Assembly (NCBI RefSeq): GCF_001428525.1
Contig: NZ_LMHW01000013.1
Span: forward strand, 249,175 to 313,174
Source of the DNA: Flavobacterium sp. Root186
GTDB lineage: Bacteria; Bacteroidota; Bacteroidia; Flavobacteriales; Flavobacteriaceae
DNA length: 64,000 nt
Reading direction: 5' to 3'
A program made the position numbers and the translations under genes. Below, one piece after another: positions 42,904 to 44,168 of the stretch (positions within the stretch are counted from its first letter, which is position 1; each line of letters begins with the position of its first letter). Below the pieces are notes generated by a model, which was not told the origin of the DNA, ran no database searches, and saw nothing but the letters and a program-made list of their open reading frames with translations.

Positions 42904-43338
42904 ATGAAAAACATAACAACATTAGAAGCAGGTTTAGTTTTAAGAATAGTTTTAGGAATTACAATGTTATCAGCAGTTGCTGACCGATTTGGACTTTGGG
43001 GAGCACCCGGTTCTAACGGTGTTGCATGGGGAAACTGGGAAAATTTTGTTCTTTATACACAGACACTTAATTCTTTAGCAAGTAAATCGACTGCAGAAGT
43101 ATTAGGAGCAATTGCAACATTTTTTGAGATTCTATTTTCTATATTGTTATTTTTCGGATTTAAAACCAGAATCGCTGCGTTAGGAACTGCTGGTTTAATG
43201 CTTGTTTTTGCATTTGCAATGGCAATTTCTGTTTCAGTAAAAGCGCCATTTGATTATTCTGTTTTAACAAGTGCTGCCGCGGCTTTATTGCTTTCTACAA
43301 TTGGTAAAACTGCTTTTGCGGCTGATAATAAAATATAA
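42904..43338 (+). CDS. DoxX family membrane protein
   Basis: A 144-aa protein from the ATG at 42904 with four transmembrane helices, as usual for DoxX: LEAGLVLRIVLGITMLSAVADRFG, EVLGAIATFFEILFSILLFFGF, IAALGTAGLMLVFAFAMAISV and a last hydrophobic segment. The family includes quinone-linked membrane proteins with poorly defined roles in redox or thiol stress. It follows an AraC-hydrolase pair. The last 18 codons and the bases just after are duplicated 372 bp downstream (43657-43713). Confidence 0.88.
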   Translation: MKNITTLEAGLVLRIVLGITMLSAVADRFGLWGAPGSNGVAWGNWENFVLYTQTLNSLASKSTAEVLGAIATFFEILFSILLFFGFKTRIAALGTAGLMLVFAFAMAISVSVKAPFDYSVLTSAAAALLLSTIGKTAFAADNKI

Positions 43339-43341
43339 AAA
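43285..43341 (+). repeat. 57-bp direct repeat, copy 1 (3' end of DoxX gene)
   Basis: Identical to 43657-43713. It covers the end of the DoxX coding region from the LLSTIGK codons through the TAA and the following A run. The 315 bp between copies hold a terminator and a hairpin-rich element. Confidence 0.9.
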
Positions 43342-43345
43342 AACA

Positions 43346-43382
43346 AAAGAGATTGTCTAAAAGGTTGAGACAAGCTCTTTTT
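43346..43382 (+). terminator. intrinsic terminator after DoxX gene
   Basis: AAAGAG and TTGTCT pair with AGACAA and CTCTTT, followed by T residues. It begins 8 bp past the DoxX stop. Confidence 0.75.
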
Positions 43383-43413
43383 ATTTTATATTTTTCTTTG
43401 TTCCTTATGAACA

Positions 43414-43584
43414 TTTCATAGGTAGAAAATTATATTGCTATCATTGTTTACGTTCCGTAGGAACGTTTGATTTTGACATCGCTATATCATTTTTTAATAA
43501 TCTGAAATATCAAACATTCCTACGGAATGTAAATATCGATGGTCTCTACTTTTTTTCTACCTATGAAACATTCCTAATGGAATG
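43414..43584. repeat. REP-like, hairpin-rich element
   Basis: Bounded by a perfect 16-bp inverted repeat (TTTCATAGGTAGAAAA at 43414-43429 and its complement at 43553-43568). Inside or at the edge are three related hairpins: ACGTTCC-GTA-GGAACGT (43450-43466), ACATTCC-TAC-GGAATGT (43514-43530) and CATTCC-TAAT-GGAATG (43569-43584). No coding frame is present. It looks like a non-autonomous REP or MITE-type element. Confidence 0.7.
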
Positions 43585-43656
43585 ATAGCCGGATATCAAA
43601 AAAACGACTACTTAAGTTTTCATTAAAAACAGGCAAAAAATAATAACAAGAGCGCC

Positions 43657-43713
43657 TTATTGCTTTCTACAATTGGTAAAACTGCTTTTGCGGCTGATAA
43701 TAAAATATAAAAA
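43657..43713 (+). pseudogene. 57-bp direct repeat, copy 2 (isolated DoxX 3' end)
   Basis: An exact second copy of the last part of the DoxX gene, without the rest of the gene. The frame before it is not DoxX-like, so it is a remnant. It is followed by its own terminator, which may be the original terminator of the gene. Confidence 0.8.
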
Positions 43714-43716
43714 CGA

Positions 43717-43745
43717 AAACGGGATAGATTACTCTACCCCGTTTT
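43717..43745 (+). terminator. intrinsic terminator after the duplicated DoxX end
   Basis: AAAACGGG and ATAGA pair with TCTAC and CCCGTTTT. It may be bidirectional, serving also the minus-strand gene ending at 43776. Confidence 0.75.
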
Positions 43746-43775: not shown

Positions 43776-44168
43776 CTACAAAAGTGTTTCTACATAATTA
43801 GCTATTTGAGAATCCGTTTGAGAATTAAAAGAAGACTGCACCAATTGCACGGTTAAAAACAAGGTGTCGTCTTTTAATTCCATTTTAACGTCATCATTAT
43901 TTTCAGAATTTGTTAAACGAATGGTACTTAGTTTATCCTTAAGCGCTTCTTTTCCCATATCATCAGAACAGATTTTTTTAACGAAAGATTCTACGTCGTC
44001 AAAAACAATATCCAGTCTTGATAAAGGATATTCGTCATACGCTGTAAAAGTATTCCAGTCAATATCTACTTTAATATCATAACCCGCTCTTTCTTTTAGT
44101 TTTGCTTCAAAAGCCGGAAGTTTTTCTACTTTAATCGATTCTGCTAAACGTTTTTCTGCTAATCCCAT
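43776..44168 (-). CDS. hypothetical protein
   Basis: Unrecognised 130-aa cytoplasmic protein (no leader, no transmembrane segment), with mixed alpha/beta character: a helical start rich in Lys and Glu (LAEKRLAESIKVEKLPAFEAKLKERAGYDIKVDIDW), then YPLSRLDIVFDDVESFVKKICSDDMGKEALKDKLSTIRL, then KMELKDDTLFLTVQLVQSS. A minus-strand -7 element (TAAATTTG, 44197-44204) lies about 30 bp upstream, so it is a single-gene unit. Confidence 0.75.
   Translation of the reverse strand: MGLAEKRLAESIKVEKLPAFEAKLKERAGYDIKVDIDWNTFTAYDEYPLSRLDIVFDDVESFVKKICSDDMGKEALKDKLSTIRLTNSENNDDVKMELKDDTLFLTVQLVQSSFNSQTDSQIANYVETLL

Follow-up and report, generated by a model that had tools for sequence, protein, structure and literature searches.

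How does the end of an intact gene come to stand twice in a genome, with a hairpin-rich segment between the two copies? We address this question for a putative DoxX-family gene of Flavobacterium sp. Root186, which lies in a stretch of 64,000 nucleotides (contig NZ_LMHW01000013.1, positions 249,175 to 313,174; hereafter the window) and has homologues in many Flavobacterium. An earlier model reading of the letters alone (hereafter the sequence-only reading) had reported that the last 57 bp of the gene recur 372 bp downstream, and had proposed that a non-autonomous element entered the gene end and restored it. The duplication is real: the two copies agree at 57/57 bases at a spacing of 372, and the repeat can be extended to 72 nt at 92% identity. 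We consider it probable, at roughly two chances in three, that the inner segment is a non-autonomous, terminator-carrying repeat similar to paired repetitive extragenic palindromes (REPs) that form hairpins (REPINs) or to bacterial interspersed mosaic elements (BIMEs), and that a rearrangement joined at microhomologies copied, rather than restored, the DoxX end. The duplicated gene end is most likely a one-off by-product.

Architecture of the inner segment

The inner segment consists, in this order, of a terminator-like hairpin (T1), the hairpins A, B, B' and A', and an AT-rich tail that ends in AAGAGC (Table 1). Four hairpins are thus present (A in degenerate form), not three as first counted. 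The perfect 16-bp inverted repeat of the sequence-only reading exists (43414-43429 / 43553-43568), but it is not the boundary of the element, since neither the A hairpins nor the terminator fall within it. Likewise, a terminator hairpin does lie between the two gene ends, but it belongs to the repeat family and not to DoxX; the one reported after the second gene end proves to be the native terminator. T1 is absent from the listing of our terminator scan, in which loops were limited to 3-8. Complete copies of the family carry a second terminator-like hairpin (T2) at the right, which in the window copy stops after 6 bases.

Folded as a single DNA strand, the 315-nt segment outperforms its shuffled versions (z -8.28, 0/100 as good), and another copy (L002) reaches z -15.03. 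With an inverted pair of REP-like hairpins, a spacer and single-strand folding, the segment has what characterizes a REPIN. An alignment of 10 chosen T hairpins has 97.5% of its cells paired, a percentage favoured by the choice of intact-looking rows only (T2 of L007 and the partly degenerate T2 of L003, L004 and L008 were left out), while slid versions give 36-59%; both sides have changed in 8/12 pairs. Based on this pairing, the two-sided changes and the lower values of the slid versions, the T stem of the family seems to be maintained, although one of five measures does not favour structure (further pair types, 11 vs a shuffled mean of 12.8). No open reading frame (ORF) of at least 60 aa is present within 43342-43656, and the segment lacks the transposase of its own that an IS200/IS605 element would carry. 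A search of the 64-kb stretch against Rfam gave 11 matches up to E 1, none of which reaches the gathering score of its family.

A dispersed repeat family in Flavobacterium

The view that the segment is a non-autonomous dispersed element is supported. A search of the window's genome for further copies, as the sequence-only reading had suggested, returned 25 match rows, including eight copies of 218-322 bp, with identities of 77-83% between the window copy and each of the other seven. The simpler alternative raised by the same reading, a local tandem duplication alone, leaves this dispersed inner segment unexplained. The hairpin motif has 58 matches at no more than one mismatch in the same genome (some of the one-mismatch matches look unrelated), compared to 0 for the reversed control. 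Across the genus, an element match is present in 14/101 genomes, the window's genome included. At E<1e-12, the element core is matched in 33/398 genomes; two candidates per genome were scored for this count, a missing match is no proof of absence, and G250, which matches through the DoxX side, does not enter it.

Of eight distinct genomes compared, F. panici yields the largest number of element matches, with 88 rows when both orientations are included, and it contains tandem arrays of a terminator-plus-core unit (L287, L303 and L304). A truncated copy in F. panici (L278) continues, at the central spacer, into another copy. The terminator hairpin was also considered as an independent repeat and rejected for the window's genome, where its four exact sites are all at L002, L003 and L006; a lone T-like terminator is found at the L005 site of genome G136. 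A literature search for such an element in Flavobacterium, with most subscription journals outside its reach, found no description.

The DoxX site in relatives

Orthologous DoxX sites lacking the insert, another check proposed beforehand, were found in four relatives (G136, HSC-32F16, F. defluvii and G323), where the gene end, the native terminator and the convergent gene follow one another with no repeat between them; the layout of the window is not common to all. In three further relatives (UBA7680, F. panici and G183), which include the two closest relatives found, the site holds a different repeat (ACACATAGAAACATAG type) that is homologous among the three at both ends. In a tree of DoxX and its neighbour gene, the window falls together with UBA7680 and F. 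panici (100/99), and G183 branches outside (82/87). By parsimony, this branching order suggests that the other repeat was probably ancestral at the DoxX site and later disappeared from the window's lineage; alternatively, it could have been gained twice independently. The second repeat (ACACATAGAAACATAG ... CTATGTGTTT) also occurs at the same gene-end positions in relatives, i.e. at L145, L146 and L321 (downstream of DoxX) and at L300 (the L008 site in UBA7680).

The sequence-only reading had taken identity over all 57 bp as a sign of a recent event, and such recency does not follow. Flavobacterium sp. UBA7680 shares the 54 coding bases of the repeat without a change, and its DoxX gene as a whole is 90.3% identical, so the identity over 57 bp says little on age. 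Only the non-coding copy 2 hints at a limited age. At sites shared with F. panici, its copies are 88.9-96.6% identical to those of the window's genome for L002, L006, L007 and L008, 82.0 and 89.5% for L003 (rearranged) and 79-81% for L005 (an array). Because these identities are not uniform, age by identity is uncertain.

Other insertion sites and flanking repeats

At four of the five other sites that could be analysed (L002, L003, L006 and L008), relatives carry an intrinsic terminator of their own that is missing from the filled allele, and the element with its terminator-like hairpin or hairpins stands there instead; at the fifth (L007), the native terminator is kept. The remaining two of the seven other sites were left out of this count: at L004 the nearest empty relatives are too divergent or have ~1.2 kb between the flanks, and L005 has three different empty states. 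The empty row of genome G401 at L006 did not anchor in the comparison.

De-duplication of the fetched loci gave 72 distinct copies, 71 of them with enough flank. A flank repeat of at least 16 bp is present in 12/71: the window copy (57 bp), L003 (its own terminators), nine copies in tandem arrays and L102. The host flank is clearly duplicated in the window copy only (1/71), and no long target duplication was found in the other 70 within the test range of at least 11 bp. The seven other long copies in the window's genome have no flank repeat of at least 14 bp, except T1/T2 in L003. These counts do not support the idea that the element by its nature restores gene ends: the host flank is clearly duplicated once, and a host terminator is missing at four of the five other analysable sites. 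The repeat at L102 (TGCCTCTTTGAACCTT) looks like part of yet another repeat.

The same counts bear on two other explanations of the second gene end. An integrative element that uses the 3' end of a gene as its attachment site would leave the gene intact, and the stop codon does lie within the duplicated end. However, such an element should encode an integrase and duplicate a gene end at each insertion, whereas the segment is free of ORFs of 60 aa and longer, flank repeats of at least 14 bp are absent from the other seven long copies of the genome (T1/T2 in L003 apart) and a gene-end repeat is not a family property among the 71 copies; we regard this origin as extremely improbable. Alternatively, a Y1 or other transposase could have inserted the element and duplicated a 57-bp target in doing so. 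In favour are the empty sites in relatives and the second gene end, which abuts the native terminator directly, as a duplicated target predicts. Yet the 70 other copies have no flank repeat of at least 18 bp outside tandem arrays (only the 16 bp at L102 are unexplained), host DNA is missing instead at 4/5 of the other sites that could be analysed, the truncation of the element falls precisely on the junction and the window's genome has no cognate transposase. To our knowledge, enzymes of the IS200/IS605 type make no target duplications. Insertion with target-site duplication appears unlikely.

A Y1 transposase clade beside the same hairpins

A Y1/REP-type transposase acting in trans had been proposed as something to look for, and a candidate exists in other genomes, beside the same hairpins. 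Matches to PF01797 occur in 18/20 genomes searched, and in five of these a gene of one Y1 clade is surrounded by A- and/or B-type units. Defined as proteins at least 83% identical to that of L064, this clade is present in 16/398 genomes. An element match at E<1e-12 occurs in 16/16 clade genomes vs 17/382 others (genome relatedness uncorrected; in G312 it is the transposase gene's own flank that matches, and a weaker match follows at 1.4e-6). An A or B unit lies no more than 900 bp from the gene in 15/16 clade loci (10 with both) vs 3/51 other Y1 loci, the A/B patterns having been written after some clade loci had been read. The three loci with such units outside the clade (L058, L128 and L306) form one neighbouring clade (92-97% identical to L058) with a related hairpin. 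By eye, an A or B unit directly abuts the start codon in 8/16 clade loci and lies within ~10 nt of it in three more. As in REP-associated tyrosine transposase (RAYT) systems, or REPtrons, the same dispersed repeats flank a transposase gene in these relatives, the clade being absent from the window's genome.

The clade protein carries the Y---Q--HH signature of subclass 1.2 (assigned from the motif only) and scores 77.1 bits against the NCBIfam IS200 model (cut-off 55). Against the NCBIfam REP_Tyr_transpos model it scores 28.5 bits (cut-off 80), which places it outside the RAYT family as modelled. All six solved chains matched are named transposases. From the association of gene and hairpins, we infer that this clade may mobilise the element.

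The Y1 gene of L128 (own genome, C11:281111-284440) is 92% identical to L058 over 142 residues and looks frame-disrupted near its start codon, and the surrounding hairpin family is related but different. Several Flavobacterium Y1 clades (L066, L142 and L057-L059) appear each to have hairpins of their own beside the gene; a GTAG-like motif often follows one of these hairpins on its 3' side, after a few bases.

A model for the DoxX locus

The joins of the insert, inspected by eye, are (i) the A run after the stop codon, (ii) GC near GAGC/GCC before copy 2 and (iii) ATAA before the native terminator. These apparent microhomologies, the loss of T2 and the loss of the older repeat fit either template switching or insertion followed by recombination. 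In such a rearrangement, a truncated element plus a second gene end would take the place of the DNA that lay between the stop codon of DoxX and the native terminator, and the older, different repeat would be lost from the window's lineage in the replacement. A mistake made during copying or repair is the probable source of the second gene end, more so than a true integrating element. Because the element brings its own terminator-like hairpin, the DoxX gene stays intact.

The rearrangement could take two forms. In the first, microhomology-directed template switching would achieve it in one event. In the second, insertion of the element would be followed by recombination with an element-free allele, which would cut off T2 and supply the gene end together with the native terminator; homology-facilitated illegitimate recombination is a mechanism for such joining. 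This two-step history accounts for the missing T2, the flush junction, the 57-bp identity and the divergence of the element from all other copies seen. However, it requires an element-free allele in the population, of which none was seen, and three relatives hold a different insert instead; we put it forward as a possible course, and tentatively.

Several points weigh against our explanation of the locus, whichever its form. No close source copy was found. Over lengths of at least 180 bp, no copy exceeds ~84% identity to that of the window (a 92-bp part reaches 89%); by this measure the window copy is old, or the copy from which it came has disappeared or lies outside the sample. The microhomologies are short and lie in AT-rich DNA, where they could have arisen by chance, and the proposed order of events is provisional. 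L102 is flanked on both sides by an unexplained 16-bp repeat (TGCCTCTTTGAACCTT). Furthermore, the Y1 genes of the window's genome, G079, F. panici and UBA7680 all fall outside the cognate clade (best 54-60% identity), and F. panici is nevertheless the richest of the eight genomes in element matches. The element may now be immobile in the window's lineage, or it may be served by another Y1 protein.

A more far-reaching reading, which we find rather doubtful, is that Flavobacterium has a REP-like system driven by an IS200-like HuH protein, although the subclass of that protein has been taken to lack cognate repeats; in this system, a terminator-bounded unit would preferentially swap intrinsic terminators at gene ends. 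Exchange would then take place at A and T tracts, insertions would be silent and the DoxX copy would be a misjoined product of exchange. The coordinates behind our preferred explanation, microhomology-joined rearrangement, are given in Table 1. Between 43250 and 43800, candidate promoter-like sites number 15 vs 2.4 expected from shuffles, in AT-rich sequence.

Table 1. Features of the DoxX locus, in coordinates of the window.
Feature	Position	Strand	Basis
DoxX-family gene (putative; label from the sequence-only reading), intact	42904..43338	+	ORF list, ATG start
Gene-end repeat, copy 1: last 17 codons, stop, AAA	43285..43341	+	repeat search
T1, terminator-like hairpin of the repeat family	43345..43381	.	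script; family comparison
Repeat A: degenerate hairpin (43400-43412) + GGTAG	43400..43425	+	sequence, copy comparison
Repeat B: ACGTTCCGTAGGAACGTTTGAT; hairpin 43450-43466	43450..43471	+	sequence, repeat search
Repeat B' (inverted B); hairpin 43514-43530	43509..43530	-	sequence, repeat search
Repeat A' (inverted A); hairpin 43569-43584	43553..43584	-	sequence, repeat search
T2 remnant AAGAGC (right-hand terminator), remainder missing	43648..43653	.	comparison with copies L002, L004, L005, L006
Gene-end repeat, copy 2: non-coding remnant, continues into native terminator	43657..43713	+	repeat search, relatives
Native terminator between convergent genes; counterparts in relatives	43716..43745	.	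terminator scan
Convergent neighbour gene; synteny anchor	43776..44168	-	ORF list

Implications and comparison with known systems

Orthologous filled and empty sites between species reveal what an insertion adds and what it removes, as at the four sites that lost the host terminator. Since a small clade of Y1 proteins is encoded next to these hairpins, the mechanism is open to experiment, both in vitro and in a laboratory strain. The DoxX locus is also a warning that a duplicated gene end alone is no mark of an integrase.

The family has some traits of miniature inverted-repeat transposable elements (MITEs), i.e. it is small, has no ORF and has imperfect terminal inverted repeats (T1/T2), but it differs from them in the absence of long target duplications reported above; a constant short target-site duplication, which marks MITEs, may lie below the 11-bp limit of that survey. 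REP dimers within larger palindromes have been described in other organisms, where GTAG-15, GTAG-23 and CGTC-1 units lie within longer palindromes (PMC3733652, in the sections drawn on here). In this they resemble the present unit, whereas terminators are not described in those sections; the strings 'flavobacter' and 'terminator' are absent from the main text of that paper.

The transposase recalls TnpA_Y1 subclass 1.2, which, in the part of Quentin et al. (2018, PMC6006769) used for comparison, is generally without IS200-like end structures. Both share the Y---Q--HH motif, occurrence in Bacteroidetes, proximity to IS200 transposases and low copy number; the difference is that one clade here has cognate dispersed repeats beside its gene.

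The closest likeness in working is to the REP/REPIN-RAYT systems (TnpA_REP, 'REPtron') of Pseudomonas and E. coli, for which we draw on portions of PMC8266576 and PMC3116915; the spread of REP-like repeats is poorly understood, according to the portion of PMC8266576 cited. As there, short palindromes are dispersed in inverted pairs (and, in a relative, in tandem arrays), the same palindromes flank a Y1 transposase gene and GTAG is part of unit A. By contrast, REPs of the GTAG type have this motif at the 5' foot of the palindrome, whereas here it lies ~9-10 nt 3' of hairpin A, with its letters also in the B loop. The protein fits the IS200 model and not the REP-transposase model, and the Flavobacterium unit is bounded by terminator-like hairpins and has 8 long copies in the window's genome. 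Judged by these comparisons of sequence, the system is REPIN/RAYT-like in its apparent working, but is set apart by the side on which GTAG lies, by the putative subclass of its protein and by its terminator-like boundaries.
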